The translations under genes and the position numbers were made by a program. 64,000 nucleotides of DNA from NCBI RefSeq assembly GCF_042477335.2, contig NC_091254.1, positions 97,923,001-97,987,000 on the forward strand, given 5' to 3'. Source of the DNA: Ovis canadensis. Taxonomy: Eukaryota > Chordata > Mammalia > Artiodactyla > Bovidae. How positions within the stretch are numbered: position 1 is the stretch's first letter; each line of letters begins with the position of its first letter. The notes under the pieces are model-generated. The model saw nothing but the letters and a program-made list of their open reading frames with translations, made no database searches and had not been told where the DNA came from. This document shows, piece after piece, positions 11,065 to 64,000 of the stretch.

Positions 11065-11434
11065 AGATGTATCAATAAGGTGGTCTGAAAGTTTCTGGCA
11101 ATAAGTATATCTGTAGAAATGAGACTTGAAAGACAACCCTGATTCAAACAAAGAAACATGGAATGTGTCTGAAACGTAAAACTGACTGATAGGTGTCGGT
11201 CAGACAGACAATCTACAGGCTCAGACTCCTTGCAGTTCACGGATGCGATCTTACAAAACGGACTATAACCAGAGCTAAGTGTGGGAGAGAAAGGGGGACC
11301 TCTGGAACATGGCCGCCAGGGTAACGTGCAGAAGGGCTGGAGCTACAAAATGTTACCAGGCAACGGAGCAACCTTTTAGCTGTAACCCAAATAAAACACA
11401 GAAGCAGGGAGGCAGACCGGAGGGCAGAGAAGAA
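11065..11434. other. Unique sequence
   Basis: No repeat or gene recognised. Confidence 0.5.
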
Positions 11435-14646: not shown

Positions 14647-14891
14647 GGGCTTCCCTGACAGCTCAGTTGGTAAAGAATCCGCCTGCAAGGCAGAAGACCC
14701 CAGTTCGATTCCTGGGGCGGGAAGATCTGCTAGAGAAGGGAAAGGCTCCCCACTCCAGTATTCCTGGGCTTCCCTGGTGGCTCAGCTGCTGAAGAATCCA
14801 CCTGCAATGTGGGAGACCTGGGTTCAATCCCTGTATTGGGAAAATCCCCTGGAGAAGAGAAAGGCTCCCCACTCCAGTCTTCTGGCCTACT
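14647..14891 (+). mobile_element. Dimeric Bov-tA-type SINE
   Basis: Two tRNA-derived heads lie in tandem. The first runs from 14647 with a B box at cagttcgattcc (14701-14712), the second from gggcttccctggtggctc (14766) with a B box at gggttcaatccc (14819-14830). Each is followed by a gatc...ctagagaag or ggagaag monomer body. It ends near 14891 without the usual full tail. Confidence 0.9.
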
Positions 14892-15790: not shown

Positions 15791-16458
15791 AGATGCCCTA
15801 GAGACGGGAGGGTCTCAACTTCCAAAGCCACAGGTCAAACGGAAGAACGGAATGTGTCCTGCGCCCGTTTAATCATTCACCCTTCAGACACCCCTTACAG
15901 GAGTCACTGCCTCAGTGTTCCTCTCCTGTCCTCCACTTGGGCGGTCTGCAAACAGTCATCACAAGGCCACCTGTGTGAAGGGAGTCACGTGCAGAAATCA
16001 GCCAGGATGGTCTGTGAACTCCAGGAATGTATCCTCTCGCACTGGACACGGACGTGCCCTGTGGAACTTCAAAACAAAGTCGGTAATGTGTTGCCGCGTG
16101 TGAGACAGAGAAGGATGGCCAACAGCTCACAGGAGGGCGATATGCTTGTACAACAAGGCCCCTACAGACAAACCTTCAAGTTGCAGACTTCCAACGATGC
16201 AAACCTGCACTCCATCAGCGTCAGGAGTGAGTGAAATTGCAGCTTTCCCTACCTCTGTCTCCCGCTTCTGATGCTCCTTCAGCTCAGCCCTCTCCGCCCC
16301 CCTTCAGGAACTCTTCCTGCTCACTCAGCGCCAGGCCCTGTGAGCCGGCTGTTCTACAGACCTATGTTTCAAGATCTTGTCCTCTAAGATGAAAAATGAC
16401 TTCTTAATTTCTGTGTGTTTGTTTTTCATGTATTATTTGCGTGAAACATCCTGGAAGC
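15791..16458. other. Unique sequence left of the 54-bp array
   Basis: No recognised repeat. The 126-codon frame at 15854-16234 has no recognisable domain. The last 20 bases hold the pre-insertion flank from which the array unit was copied. Confidence 0.5.
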
Positions 16459-18456
16459 CTATTGTAGTACCATATGGGGTTCCCTGAGAGCTCAGGTGGC
16501 GAAGAAGCCACCCTATTATAGTACCGTATGGGGTTCCCTGAGAGCTCAGGTGGTGAAGAAGCCACCCTATTATAGTACCGTATGGGGTTCCCTGAGAGCT
16601 CAGGTGGTGAAGAAGCCACCCTATTATAGTACCGTATGGGGTTCCCTGAGAGCTCAGGTGGCGAAGAAGCCACCCTATTGTAGTACCGTATGGGGTTCCC
16701 TGAGAGCTCAGGTGGCGAAGAAGCCACCCTATTATAGTACCGTATGGGGTTCCCTGATAGCTCAGGTGGCGAAGAAGCCACCCTATTATAGTACTATATG
16801 GGGTTCCCTGAGAGCTCAGGTGGTGAAGAAGCCACCCTATTATAGTACCGTATGGGGTTCCCTGAGAGCTCAGGTGGTGAAGAAGCCACCCTATTATAGT
16901 ACCGTATGGGGTTCCCTGAGAGCTCAGGTGGCGAAGAAGCCACCCTATTGTAGTACCGTATGGGGTTCCCTGAGAGCTCAGGTGGCGAAGAAGCCACCCT
17001 ATTGTAGTACCGTATGGGGTTCCCTGAGAGCTCAGGTGGCGAAGAAGCCACCCTATTGTAGTACCGTATGGGGTTCCCTGAGAGCTCAGGTGGCGAAGAA
17101 GCCACCCTATTGTAGTACCGTATGGGGTTCCCTGAGAGCTCAGGTGGCGAAGAAGCCACCCTATTATAGTACCGTATGGGGTTCCCTGATAGCTCAGGTG
17201 GCGAAGAAGCCACCCTATTATAGTACCGTATGGGGTTCCCTGAGAGCTCAGGTGGTGAAGAAGCCACCCTATTATAGTACCGTATGGGGTTCCCTGAGAG
17301 CTCAGGTGGCGAAGAAGCCACCCTATTATAGTACCGTATGGGGTTCCCTGAGAGCTCAGGTGGCGAAGAAGCCACCCTATTATAGTACTATATGGGGTTC
17401 CCTGAGAGCTCAGGTGGCGAAGAAGCCACCCTATTATAGTACCGTATGGGGTTCCCTGAGAGCTCAGGTGGTGAAGAAGCCACCCTATTATAGTACCGTA
17501 TGGGGTTCCCTGAGAGCTCAGGTGGCGAAGAAGCCACCCTATTGTAGTACCGTATGGGGTTCCCTGAGAGCTCAGGTGGCGAAGAAGCCACCCTATTGTA
17601 GTACCGTATGGGGTTCCCTGAGAGCTCAGGTGGCGAAGAAGCCACCCTATTGTAGTACCGTATGGGGTTCCCTGAGAGCTCAGGTGGCGAAGAAGCCACC
17701 CTATTGTAGTACCGTATGGGGTTCCCTGAGAGCTCAGGTGGCGAAGAAGCCACCCTATTATAGTACCGTATGGGGTTCCCTGAGAGCTCAGGTGGCGAAG
17801 AAGCCACCCTATTATAGTACCGTATGGGGTTCCCTGAGAGCTCAGGTGGCGAAGAAGCCACCCTATTATAGTACCGTATGGGGTTCCCTGAGAGCTCAGG
17901 TGGCGAAGAAGCCACCCTATTATAGTACCGTATGGGGTTCCCTGAGAGCTCAGGTGGCGAAGAAGCCACCCTATTATAGTACCGTATGGGGTTCCCTGAG
18001 AGCTCAGGTGGCGAAGAAGCCACCCTATTATAGTACCGTATGGGGTTCCCTGAGAGCTCAGGTGGCGAAGAAGCCACCCTATTATAGTACCGTATGGGGT
18101 TCCCTGAGAGCTCAGGTGGCGAAGAAGCCACCCTATTATAGTACCGTATGGGGTTCCCTGAGAGCTCAGGTGGTGAAGAAGCCACCCTATTATAGTACCG
18201 TATGGGGTTCCCTGAGAGCTCAGGTGGTGAAGAAGCCACCCTATTATAGTACCGTATGGGGTTCCCTGAGAGCTCAGGTGGTGAAGAAGCCACCCTATTA
18301 TAGTACCGTATGGGGTTCCCTGAGAGCTCAGGTGGTGAAGAAGCCACCCTATTATAGTACCATATGGGGTTCCCTGAGAGCTCAGGTGGTGAAGAAGCCA
18401 CCCTATTATAGTACTATATGGGGTTCCCTGAGAGCTCAGGTGGTGAAGAAGCCACC
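16459..18456 (+). repeat. 54-bp minisatellite, 37 copies, built from a SINE 5' junction
   Basis: There are 37 head-to-tail copies, every one exactly 54 bp: starts fall at 16459 + 54n through 18403, with no indel. Each copy has 17 bp of flank type (ctattRtagtacYRtat) followed by 37 bp matching the start of a Bov-tA SINE head (ggggttccctgagagctcag...gccacc). Copy 1 begins in unique DNA, and copy 37 continues without a break into the rest of the SINE at 18457. Only a few sites vary: A/G in the flank, C/T and G/A in gtacYRtat, G/T in gagagctc, and C/T in ggtggYgaag. An 8-copy block starting at 16783 recurs at 17377 with offset 594 bp (11 units). Because 54 is divisible by 3 and the unit lacks stops in one frame of each strand, long open frames result: 736 codons on plus (16496-18706) and up to 337 on minus. 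The plus frame contains no ATG within the array, which argues against translation. Confidence 0.97.
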
Positions 18457-18723
18457 TGTAATCCAGGAGACCCCAGTTCGATTCCTGGGTGGGAAGATCC
18501 CCTGGAGAAGGGAAAGGCTCCCCACTCCAGTATTCTTGGGCTTCCCTTGTGGCTCAGCTGGTAAAGAATCTGCCTACAATTCGAGAGACCTGGGTTCGAT
18601 CCCTGGGTCGGGAAGATCCCCTGGAGAAGGGAAAGGCTCCCCACTCCTGTGTTCTGGCCTGGAGAATCCCATGGGCTGTATAGTTCATCAGGTTGTGAAG
18701 AGCTGAATACGACTGAGTGGCTG

Positions 18724-18728
<5 letters not shown>
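18457..18728 (+). mobile_element. Parent dimeric Bov-tA-type SINE of the array
   Basis: This continues the last array copy. The first B box, agttcgattcc, lies at 18475-18485. A second head follows with A box tggctcagctgg (18550-18561) and B box ggttcgatccc (18593-18603), then the tail to gactgagtggctgtc. Counting the head in copy 37, the element spans about 18420-18728. Confidence 0.93.

Positions 18729-18761
<33 letters not shown>
18725..18761. repeat. (CA)n microsatellite at the SINE 3' end
   Basis: About eighteen CA units form the SINE tail. The next bases, ctaccgtat (18761-18769), match the gtaccgtat that precedes the SINE head in most array copies and so look like the 3' target-site copy. 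Confidence 0.96.
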
Positions 18762-18763
<2 letters not shown>

Positions 18764-18769
18764 CCGTAT

Positions 18770-19094
18770 AGTCAACTGTGTTCGCTGCCCATCTAGGCTA
18801 GCTTTGTTGAACTTGTGAAGGCATGCTGGGAATCAAGCTGCTTCGTATGTTGGGGACTGTAATCTGTCACCCAGAGGCCGCTTTACAGAATGAGCAGATC
18901 TGGAGTAGCGGGATGACTTGTGCATCCTGATGGGAAGGAAGTGCCAGGATTAGGAATCGGAGGCTGTGGAATCAGAGGGTCAAGAATTTAACTAGAGAGT
19001 TTGCCTAGATGGTGGCTCATGAACTGAATTAGTTGGAGGCGAGAATGGAGGTGATGGGGGTCTCACATTTATCATGACTTAAGGTGAGCTGTCT
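18770..19094. other. Unique sequence
   Basis: No recognised repeat or gene. Confidence 0.5.
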
Positions 19095-20366: not shown

Positions 20367-20444
20367 TGGTACATACTCTGCACGTAAACCAGACCACAAG
20401 TATCTTGGTACATACTCTGCACGTAAACCAGACCACAAGTATTT
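20367..20444. repeat. Tandem duplication, 2 x 39 bp
   Basis: The 39-bp segment starting tggtacatactctgcacg at 20367 is repeated at 20406 with nearly perfect identity. It directly follows the head of the preceding SINE. Confidence 0.95.
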
Positions 20445-26350: not shown

Positions 26351-26553
26351 TTAGCCGCTCAGTCGTGTCTGATGCTGTGCAACCCCGTGGACCGCAGCCC
26401 ACCAGGCTCCTCTGTTCACAGGATTCTCCAGGCCAGAATACTGGAGTGGGTGGCCTTGATCTCCTCCAGTGGATCTTCCCAGCCCAGGGATTGAACCCAG
26501 ATCTTCTGCATTGCAGGCAGATTCTTCACCATCCGAGCCATCAGGGAAGCCCC
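26351..26553 (-). mobile_element. Bov-tA-type SINE, near full length
   Basis: The complement from ttagccgctcagtcgtgtct (26351) to gagccatcagggaagcccc (26536-26554). Confidence 0.92.
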
Positions 26554-30448: not shown

Positions 30449-31669
30449 GTTCAGTTCAGTTCAGTTCAGTCGCTCAGTCGTGTCCCACTCTTTGCGACCC
30501 CATGAATCGCAGCACGCCAGGCCTCCCTGTCCATCACCATCTCCCAGAGTTCACTCAGACTCACGTCCATCGAGTCAGTGATGCCATCCAGCCATCTCAT
30601 CCTGGGTCGTCCCCTTCTCCTCCTGCCCCCAATCCCTCCCAGCATCAGAGTCTTTTCCAATGAGTCAACTCTTCTCATGAGGTGGCCAAAGTACTGGAGT
30701 TTCAGCTTTAGCATCATTCCTTCCAAAGAAATCCCAGGGTTGATCTCCTTCAGAATGGACTGGTTGGATCTCCTTGCAGTCCAAGGGACCCTCAAGAGTC
30801 TTCTCCAACACCACAGTTCAAAAGCATCAATTCTTTGGCACTCGGCCTTCTTCACAGTCCAACTCTCACATCCATACATGACCACAGGAAAAACCATAGC
30901 CTTGACTGGAAGGACCTTAGTTGGCAAAGTAATGTCTCTGCTTTTGAATATGCTGTCTAGGTTGGTCATAACTTTTCTTCCAAGGAGTAAGCGTCTTTTA
31001 ATCTCATGGCAGTCACCATCTGCAATGATTTTGGAGCCCAAAATATAAAGTCTGACACTGTTTCCACTGTTTCCCCATCTATTTCCCATGAAGTGATGGG
31101 ACCAGATGCCATGATCTTCATTTTCTGAATGTTGAGCTTTTAAGCCAACTTTTTCACTCTCCTCTTTCACTTTCATCAAGAGGCTTTTTAGTTCCTCTTC
31201 ACTTTCTGCCATAAGGGTGGTGTCATCTGCATATCTGAGGTTATGGATATTTCTCCCGGCAATCTTGATTCCAGCTTGCGTTTCTTCCAGTCCAGCGCTT
31301 CTCATGATGTACTCTGCATAGAAGTTAAATAAGCAGGGTGACAATATACAGCCTTGACGTACTCCTTTTTCCTATTTGGAACCAGTCTGTTTTTCCATGT
31401 CCAGTTTTAACTGTTGCTTCCTGACCTGCATACAGATTTCTCAAGAGGCAGGTCAGGTGGTCTGGTATTCCCATCTCTTTCAGAATTTTCCACAGTTTAT
31501 TGTGATCCACACAGTCAAAGGCTTTGGCATAGTCAATAAAGCAGAAATAGATGTTTTTCTGGAACTCTCTTGCTTTTTCCATGAGCCAGTGGATGTTGGC
31601 AACTTGATCTCTGGTTCCTCCGCCTTTTCTAAAACCACCTTGAACATCAGGGAGTTCACGGTTCACGTT
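30449..31669 (-). mobile_element. BovB LINE, 5'-truncated, 1.2 kb with RT palm
   Basis: The largest BovB copy here. On the minus strand similarity begins near 31669 (NRELPDVQGGFRKG) and ends in five tttcagttcag-type tail units (30449-30470). Reverse-transcriptase motif A, FIDYAKAFDCVDH, lies at about 31502-31540, and the YADD catalytic box at 31222-31233. The C-terminal region ([40 protein letters not shown]) follows. The endonuclease domain and 5' UTR are missing. Confidence 0.96.
30466..31669 (-). pseudogene. BovB reverse transcriptase remnant
   Basis: The polymerase frame is split. One frame runs to about 31370 and a second covers 31344-30466. The break coincides with a five-base T-run (31366-31370 on plus) just before the SPCLFN block. 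Within the second frame, about 30 residues after KVGLK do not match the family, and similarity resumes at LGSK, which indicates a pair of compensating indels. RTE elements normally encode an AP endonuclease before this domain and here it is gone. It reads as a dead copy; no host function is suggested. Confidence 0.88.
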
Positions 31670-32506
31670 TGTAGCAGCTGAACTGTAATAAACTGGGGTA
31701 AGTCTGTCTTGTTTCTGAGAATAAATACGTTGCACTTTGTCCGTGGCTTGGATCATGGGCAGAGTACAGGCGGTAGAGTGCCAGCAGCTGGAAAGGCTTG
31801 ACCCCACAGGAAAGGCAGCATGTTTGGTCCAGGGCCTCCTGTATAAATATGTGAAGTGTTTATGTGGCCCATCGGTTGCTGTTAGGGCACCAATAACCCC
31901 CCACAGGTGGCAGAGCTGGGGACACAGCCACACTGGTGTCCGAGCCCCAGGCGCTTACTCAGGGCATCTCTCAGGTCTGCTGGTTCGGGAACCTCTTCTC
32001 CGTCTTCCATTCATGAAGTGAACACGTTTGTGATCAATACGTAGAGATCAATTGACTGATATCATTACAAGGAAAAAAGCAAATGAGATCCAATGTAAAT
32101 ATGTCGATTCTAGTTATCAACATACTCTGTGATTCCCACAATTGCTTGTCCCCAAATGTAAAAACGACGTGATTAAACAGCCTTTTAACTCCTGTTTGCC
32201 AGTGAACACCAGGTCTTGAGTGTGCCCCACCCACTCCCTAGGCGCAGAAAAGACCTGGTCTTTTTGTAAGAGTGGAGCCCAGCAAGCGGGTTGTTCCTGC
32301 TTCCTTCTGTCCGATCCCACTGACCGAAGAGCTGCCTTTGCCAGCAGGGTGACGTAACGTCCCCCGGGCCCCCAGCGTCTAAGAATCTCTGCAGAGTTTC
32401 CAAATAGCCACCCTGTTCTCTCCATCTTTCAACAAAATGCAATGTCATAAAACAATTGTTTTCCAGAATTTCTCTGACTGCAGTTTGATCTTTAGCCTCT
32501 AAACTT
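31670..32506. other. Unique sequence between two BovB fragments
   Basis: No recognised repeat. Open frames of 94-109 codons on opposite strands have no domain signal. Confidence 0.5.
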
Positions 32507-58026: not shown

Positions 58027-58815
58027 TATGGTGATGCTGACAATGGTGATGATGGTGACGATGGTGGTGGTGACGGTGGTGATGGTGGTGACGATGGTGG
58101 TGGTGATGGTGGTGATGGTGGTGATGGTGGTGAAGGTGATGGTGGCAATGATGGTGGTGATGATGGTGCTGATGGTGGCGATGGTGGTGGTGGTGGCGAT
58201 GGTGGTGGTGGTGGCGATGGTGGTGGTGGTGGCGATGGTGGTGGTGGTGGTGGTGATGTTGGTGAAGGTGGCAATGATGGTGGTGATGTTGGTGAAGGTG
58301 GTGATGATGGTGGTGGTGATGGTGGTGATGGTGGTGAAGGTGGTGACGATGGTGGTGGTGATGGTGGTGATGGTGGTGAAGGTGGTGACGATGGTGGTGG
58401 TGATGGTGGTGATGGTGGTGAAGGTGGTGGTGGCAATGATGGTGGTGATGATGGTGCTGATGGTGGCGATGGTGGTGGTGGTGGCGATGATGGTGGTGAT
58501 GGTGGTGATGGTGGTGACGATGGTGGTGATGGTGGTGATGGTGGTGATGGTGGTGAAGGTGGTGGTGGCAATGATGGTGGTGATGATGGTGCTGATGGTG
58601 CTGATGGTGCTGATGGTGGCGATGGTGGTGGTGGTGGCGATGGTGGTGGTGGTGGCGATGGTGGTGGTGGTGGTGGTGATGGTGGTGAAGGTGGCAATGA
58701 TGGTGGTGATGTTGGTGAAGGTGGTGATGATGGTGGTGGCGATGGTGGAGATGAAGATGGTGACGGCGGTTGTGGAGACAGTGATAAAGAAGCTGATGGT
58801 GATGGTGATGACTGA
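58027..58815. repeat. GGTGAT-family array, about 790 bp, with higher-order repeats
   Basis: Built from GGT/GAT/GGC/GAA/GAC triplets. A 42-bp unit containing ggtgaaggtggtgacgatgg repeats at 58333, 58375 and (diverging) 58417. A longer segment is duplicated at an offset of 423 bp: ggcaatgatggtggtgatga at 58144 and 58567, and ggtgaaggtggcaatgatgg at 58261 and 58684. All registers lack stops for long spans: plus frames read Gly/Asp (58009-58815, ATG-started) and Met/Val; minus frames read His-rich, Thr/Ile and Pro/Ser. Such openness in five frames is what a triplet array gives without selection. Confidence 0.97.
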
Positions 58816-62830: not shown

Positions 62831-63095
62831 CCCGTGGCCAGCATCTCACAACGCACGCAGAGGCGGCACCTTCTGCAGCACACCTGAAACTGACCAAGGG
62901 CTGCACTGACTGCATCTGATGGAAACCACAGTACAAGCGAGCAGCGGAGCTGGGGCCGCTCTGGCTCACTCTGCCGCTCATTTCATCCCAGCGGTCTCAG
63001 GAAGGCCGCGCACATTCCCCAACACACACAGGTAAGGACCCAGAGGCAGCAATACTGGGGACCAGCCCAGGGTCACCGTCTGTGATTGGAGGGCT
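62831..63095. other. Unique sequence
   Basis: No recognised feature. cacacaggtaagga at 63024-63037 resembles a splice donor without other support. Confidence 0.5.
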
Positions 63096-63321
63096 GGACA
63101 CCCCTCTTTCATATCCCTGGGCCACTCTCTGAGCCCACCATCTTGGACTCCTGGACACCCCTCTTTTCATCTCCAGGCTGCTCTCTGAGCCGCCCCTCTG
63201 GACTCCGGGACACCCCTCTCTTCATCCCCCGGCTGCTCTCTGAGCCCGCCCCCCTGGACTCCTGGACACCCCTCTCTTCATCCCCCGGCTGCCCTCTGAG
63301 CCGCCCCCCTGGACTCCTGAG
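63096..63321. repeat. Minisatellite, about 56 bp x 4
   Basis: ggacacccctct-starting units begin at 63096, 63153, 63208 and 63264 (spacings 57, 55, 56). Each contains a tcatc...ggctgctctctgagcc core. C-rich on plus. The 112-codon plus and 109-codon minus frames (63086-63438) are its products. Confidence 0.93.
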
Positions 63322-63945: not shown

Positions 63946-64000
63946 GAGAACCCTCAGTCAGCAAGCTAAATGACATATCCAGAAGGGTCACGGCAGTTCC

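Follow-up and report, generated by a model that had tools for sequence, protein, structure and literature searches.

The 64,000-nucleotide stretch analyzed here (the window, C10:97923001-97987000) contains a minisatellite that begins in the DNA flanking a short interspersed element (SINE) and runs into the element itself; both lie on the plus strand, as do all features described below unless stated otherwise. Tandem Repeats Finder (TRF) reported a period of 54 with 37.0 copies, 98% matches and no indels at positions 16458..18456, and cutting the array in register gave 37 units of 54 bp plus 1 nt. A 42-base unit pattern (up to 3 mismatches) matched 37 times in the window, as compared to a maximum of 0 in 100 shuffles. 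The array is a real tandem repeat, and the unit length and copy number of the original prediction were borne out by all of these counts. Each unit is a chimera of 18 bp of target sequence (10 bp of target DNA and the 8-bp target site) and 36 bp of a SINE head. One C is shared at the boundary, so that the unit frame slides by one base and the division into 17 + 37 bp proposed earlier is equivalent. In unit 1, the target-site copy reads TACCATAT (16468..16475) and is followed by SINE positions 1-36 (16476..16511), as assigned from the sequence and from sibling elements; 32 of the 37 units carry TACCGTAT instead. The SINE-proximal unit 37 (18402..18455, by the register cut) leads into the intact remainder of the SINE, just as had been predicted. 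Contrary to the earlier claim, the copies are not exact: only 12 of 37 match the consensus, and the other 25 deviate at one to three of columns 7, 14, 15, 31 and 43, giving eight unit types. Consisting of head-to-tail units within the size range of ~10-100 bp, in tens of copies at one locus, the array is a minisatellite. It is likewise a tandem repeat derived from a transposable element (TE), as it overlaps a TE and 36 of the 54 bp in its unit are SINE head; under the published criterion, which asks for a TE overlap of one full period, the outcome depends on how the TE is annotated.

The SINE body (18420..18724) is complete and has a dimeric head, the second head starting at 18538, as recognized by head-to-head matching and comparison to siblings. 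It is followed by a (CA)18.5 tail (18725..18761, TRF), which is abutted by the 3′ target-site duplication TACCGTAT (18762..18769). The tRNA-like head, the A- and B-boxes and the target-site duplication characterize a tRNA-derived SINE, which we take to be of the Bov-tA type. A- and B-boxes without mismatch reside in the second head, and a box search located a B-box-like AGTTCGATTCC with one mismatch in that part of the first head which is still single-copy (18475..18485). Relatives with dimeric heads were found in the window at 14647-14888 and 63953-63678. A further SINE head at 26475-26548 on the minus strand was called a tRNA by Rfam (29.7 bits, cut-off 29) and tRNA-Cys by ARAGORN. Among the best 40 of 6949 candidates scored in the assembly, the 305-bp SINE had 39 other siblings at 85-89%, whose alignments started at SINE position 1 (24 siblings), 2 (seven), 5 (five) and 6, 7 or 9 (one each). 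All 16 top siblings that were fetched showed GGG at the exact SINE start, preceded by differing upstream DNA. Since the siblings begin there, we placed the 5′ end of the SINE at the unit junction. As a control for extra heads the 39 siblings are unsuited, because the listed matches lack two array units that ought to be among them and because diverged 37-base copies would not show.

The target site TACCGTAT abuts the SINE at both ends, with the SINE starting directly after it; outside the array it occurs once on the plus strand of the window (the 3′ copy) and nowhere on the other strand. The DNA that received the SINE is itself repetitive. Genomic matches, the best pieces of which start from 16149, delimit the 5′ half of an old dispersed repeat (~30% diverged) at 16149..16475, and copies of this host repeat indicate that it continues past the insertion at 18770..18819. 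Among the matches listed by the assembly search, dozens of dispersed loci match parts of 16301-16475 at 70-83%; the assumption that copy 1 of the array starts in unique DNA was therefore wrong. We fetched 20 host-repeat copies with ~400 bases per side and compared them to the joined flanks of the SINE. The junction was spanned by a flagged piece in 18 of these 20 copies, and 17 entered the base-level alignment after L021 (crossing by 13 bases), L026 (ending before the junction) and L028 (best piece only) had been dropped. Because host-repeat copies run across the junction without an insertion, the pre-insertion state, with one copy of the target site, can be reconstructed from sequence at the level of the repeat family.

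These features can be explained by a sequence of events that starts with an ordinary retrotransposition. A dimer-headed Bov-tA-type SINE entered the old dispersed repeat by target-primed retrotransposition and duplicated TACCGTAT, a step that is documented by the sequence and by the insertion-free copies of the host repeat. A 54-bp segment, in which 10 bp of target DNA precede the 8-bp target site and the first 36 bp of the SINE follow it, was then duplicated in tandem, as demonstrated by the composition of the unit. This duplication should postdate integration, since only then were target and SINE contiguous as DNA. The units holding both target and SINE DNA, the target-site copies flanking the element and the insertion-free host-repeat copies thus support the proposal that a tRNA-derived SINE was already in place when the array arose at its 5′ junction. 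From two copies onwards, slippage, unequal exchange or gene conversion would have expanded and homogenized the array, as suggested by the unit types and their clustering. We consider this course of SINE insertion, 54-bp junction duplication and subsequent expansion, taken as a whole, to be highly probable.

The original prediction had named an established satellite, dispersed over many loci, as the observation that would speak against such an origin. In the 2.974-Gb assembly, 16 of the 18 matches listed for a three-unit query fell inside the array. The remaining two (84-90% over 40-51 query bases) turned out to be dimer-headed SINEs of the ordinary kind, each having one 5′ head and no match to the host repeat, and no array was present in the ~100 bases upstream of either. 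No other full-unit match was among those listed for the 2.97-Gb assembly by this search, which skips very common words; full units were found at one locus in the assembly, and the array does not have the distribution of a satellite dispersed over many loci. The unit pattern was found neither in viral contigs nor in genome contigs; the common SINE head was also missing from the viral set, so that the viral negative is uninformative. Tandem arrays are a weak point of assemblies, and the true copy number might be smaller or the array the product of mis-assembly, a notion to which the identity of units 25-31 lends some support. Five variant columns and clustered unit types argue against an artefact, and contig C10 (first 4000 bases N) terminates in telomeric TTAGGG repeats. 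Such an end hints at an assembly from long reads, which would span 2 kb. We therefore regard an artefact as very improbable. The copy number reported here is that of the single assembly covered and is potentially variable. The telomeric end of C10 is 2.57 Mb away from the array; minisatellites are said, in the accessible part of a review, to accumulate in subtelomeric regions (PMC6947457).

The order of unit types along the array (ABBCDEFBCDDDDEBCCGBCDDDDCCCCCCCBBBBHF) shows that like units cluster, forming 20 runs as compared to a mean of 29.5 in shuffles, a value as low being reached in 3 of 20000. Units 25-31 are all of one type. A six-unit block, BCDDDD, occurs twice; when units were shuffled freely, repeats of this kind arose in 352 of 20000 cases, rising to 1419 of 20000 once runs were kept, and we thus rejected a higher-order block structure as not significant beyond clustering. 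At column 43, T is the state of all 16 fetched siblings and of the SINE-proximal units 32-37, while C is present in 25 of the 37 units, indicating that C is probably derived; the more distant dimer at 63954 carries C as well. At column 31, 35 of 37 units have G and the 16 siblings have T (13), C (two) or G (one); the T of units 6 and 14 may be either an old state or a reversion. At columns 14-15, CG is found in most units as well as in the 3′ target-site copy, and five units have CA or TA. Decay of CpG would be expected to give this pattern, although the host repeat, too, commonly has TA. Every variant state is present in at least two units and none is private. Assuming 2.2e-9 mutations per site and year, this lack of private variants bounds the last overall turnover of the array to roughly 0.7 million years, a rough estimate that ignores homogenization by conversion. 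The array is apparently young in its present form. The SINE differs by 11-15% from its best siblings and therefore looks older than the present array.

How the first duplication arose is the step for which several explanations compete. It had been proposed that a microhomology common to the flank and the SINE head, GAAGCC, seeded it by slippage, in the manner of the Haber and Louis or Taylor and Breden models. The two motifs do sit near both breakpoints, and some TE-derived repeats have been explained in print by microhomology models, according to the available text of Ahmed and Liang (PMC3389668). However, the pair is spaced by 50 bp and the period of the array is 54 throughout. Slippage between the motifs would yield GAAGCC-TATT, lacking ACCC at the join; the sequence in the array is GAAGCCACC-CTATT. 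Of random 54-bp intervals in the window, 6.9% have a 6-bp repeat in an equally good position. In the host repeat, 13 copies have a base at the position of the first G in GAAGCC, and in 12 of them it is T; at the fourth position, 13 of 17 copies have A. An insertion beside CC that would mend the spacing occurs in none of the 17. At the true 54-bp junction, the homology amounts to 1 nt in the present sequence, a value shared by 27% of random 54-bp intervals of the window (~44% have at least 1 nt). The simple microhomology model is hence disfavored for this locus, and we judge this origin of the first duplication to be very unlikely. Most likely, the duplication would have been a homology-free error of replication or repair, for example a stalled polymerase re-priming 54 bp back.

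The main rival is an almost homology-free error or break that involves no hairpin: a nick or break at the boundary of target site and SINE, conceived as an endonuclease-sensitive site at the TE 5′ end, followed by repair, with the hairpin described below being incidental. Ahmed and Liang proposed such an origin for 136 human partial-Alu repeats, as far as the accessible text of that paper goes (PMC3389668). The junction homology of 1 nt is as expected from this mechanism, and the unit straddles the boundary. The breakpoints themselves are off the boundary, however, lying 18 bp upstream of the SINE and 36 bp into it. To this adds a base rate drawn from 63 SINE 5′ ends, 39 of them in 200 kb sampled from the assembly, where 1,215 bases are N, and another 24 within the window. 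None of the former 39, a small sample, had a tandem repeat (unit 20-200) within 10 bp, which counts against this rival. In the window, apart from the array, two SINE 5′ ends had a tandem repeat nearby, namely the dimer element at 14647, where the repeat consists of its own two heads, and a 39-bp duplication at 20367, which speaks in favor of breakage at SINE edges. All in all, we hold a nick or break to be a serious candidate that falls somewhat short of being probable. The 39-bp duplication itself (20367-20442, 1.9 copies, 100% matches) lies wholly in the flank, ~5 bp upstream of a SINE 5′ end (20362, minus strand), and is possibly a second, unexpanded duplication at a SINE edge.

Returning to a homology-free replication or repair error, its weakest element is the possible aid of a hairpin across the right breakpoint. 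Folding revealed a hairpin, CAGGTGG[T/C]GAAGAAGCCACCTG (18437..18458), whose 3′ arm contains this breakpoint (after 18455 or 18456). The 71-nt SINE head folded with -14.3 kcal/mol (z -2.9), and one of 200 shuffles was as good; in the comparison of 22 heads in the window, the head at the array had the lowest z (-2.7). Folds of 60 nt gave -14.3 here vs. -3.3 to -9.0 in the 16 top siblings, which form stems of 5 bp or less and all lack the hairpin. For a single 54-bp unit, the fold is no more stable than in shuffles (z -0.75; 46 of 200 were equally good). Stems of 7 bp occur at 0.79 per kb in the window, and by our own arithmetic the chance of such a stem over a given breakpoint is ~2%, or ~3-4% for either; the link between hairpin and breakpoint was, moreover, noticed after the fact. 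Two further heads show that the stem is not sufficient for array formation: the head at 11065 (minus strand) carries an 8-bp stem, reaches a lower raw energy (-15.0, z -1.3) and has no array, and sibling L072 (C1:215297728), outside the 16, could form the same 7-bp stem (CAGGTGG/CCACCTG) and has no array either. Because these heads have similar stems without an array, we consider it doubtful that the hairpin helped the first duplication. The T-to-C change at column 43, now present in 25 of 37 units, lengthens the stem within each unit from 5 to 6 bp. It is conceivable, though rather unlikely, that point changes in one SINE copy built the hairpin at the breakpoint and turned a stable 5′ junction into a minisatellite, and that the later change at column 43 may have aided its expansion.

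The array is probably neutral and needs no function. As an alternative, selection might have multiplied Pol III promoter elements, A-box-like or other. Each unit indeed contains an A-box-like GAGCTCAGGTGG, replaced by TAGCTCAGGTGG in units 6 and 14, but the usual form deviates by two mismatches, no B-box match in 16401-18800 falls within the array, and it is the second head that has both boxes in perfect form. Pfam searches in six frames of 1-15 kb and 18.6-33.6 kb returned frame-broken reverse transcriptase only. We rejected a Pol III promoter array on the quality of the boxes, and a functional array of any such kind appears scarcely credible. Open frames run through the array on both strands (753 aa at 16445-18706, plus strand; 706 aa at 16433-18553, minus strand). 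Both strands stay open because 54 is a multiple of 3, and we accordingly took this coding potential as mechanical; gene callers could annotate a false repeat protein here. Across 30 open frames and the six-frame translations of the two intervals, Pfam yielded only pieces of reverse transcriptase and no nameable gene. Two overlapping frames with RVT_1 matches at 30466-31954 (minus strand) apparently represent a frame-broken LINE remnant, the larger reverse-transcriptase frame having no match in PDB sequences. Two other repeats were observed in the window, a degenerate TGATGGTGA-type repeat of ~0.7 kb (58032-58778; GC skew 0.39 in the surrounding 2-kb bin), through which long frames are open on both strands, and a 56-bp unit in 4.1 copies with 86% matches (63094-63319, TRF).

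The array belongs to a known kind, in which part of a SINE is repeated in tandem beside an intact copy. In the human genome, 7,276 TE-derived tandem repeats were reported, 6% of which are explained by known models, leaving 6,817 unexplained, as stated in the accessible part of Ahmed and Liang (2012, PMC3389668). The same text lists 136 tandem repeats of partial Alu beside a full or near-full Alu and discusses duplication at the TE 5′ end (PMC3389668). Like these, the present array repeats part of a SINE next to an intact copy and has no direct repeats at its edges. According to the same excerpts (PMC3389668), the human partial-Alu repeats average 88.6 bp, as compared to 54 bp x 37 here; most of the 6,817 unexplained repeats have two units, as compared to 37; and, set against the partial-Alu cases, target DNA makes up one third of each unit at our locus. 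The birth models of Haber and Louis and of Taylor and Breden likewise assume duplication of a segment followed by expansion. In that paper's account (PMC3389668), the former needs flanking direct repeats of 5-10 bp, whereas 1 nt is present here at the true spacing, and the latter needs an incomplete terminal unit, whereas we found 37 complete units plus 1 nt. Alu-derived minisatellites (Jurka and Gentles 2006) and a mouse B1-derived VNTR (Bois 1998) were likewise seeded by SINEs, as cited in reviews (PMC9659126, PMC6947457). A review table places their sources near the Alu 3′ end and within B1, while the unit of the present array crosses the 5′ insertion edge. Xenopus Satellite 1 and Hydromantes Hy/Pol III, entries of a review table, also consist of tandem tRNA-related SINE-like sequence; they are listed as satellite DNAs, in contrast to the one 2-kb array in this assembly. 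We found no ruminant minisatellite at a SINE edge in the open-licence literature searched. The view that expansion across a SINE 5′ end is unusual has to be qualified in light of the 136 human partial-Alu cases, known at least from the excerpted text (PMC3389668); what does set the present case apart is the length of the array, the presence of target DNA in all of its units and how complete its record is.

At this locus the pre-insertion sequence can be read, as can the two copies of the target site, the siblings of the SINE and the unit itself, so that the position of the first duplication is defined to the base. It is this first step that lacks an explanation for most TE-derived tandem repeats (6,817 of 7,276 in human, going by the accessible text of PMC3389668), and the hairpin model can be put to the test at this locus. 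If the copy number varies, the locus could be used as a marker in its species. If the hairpin reading were true, a hairpin in the SINE head would help to predict which insertions turn into minisatellites, without being sufficient by itself.
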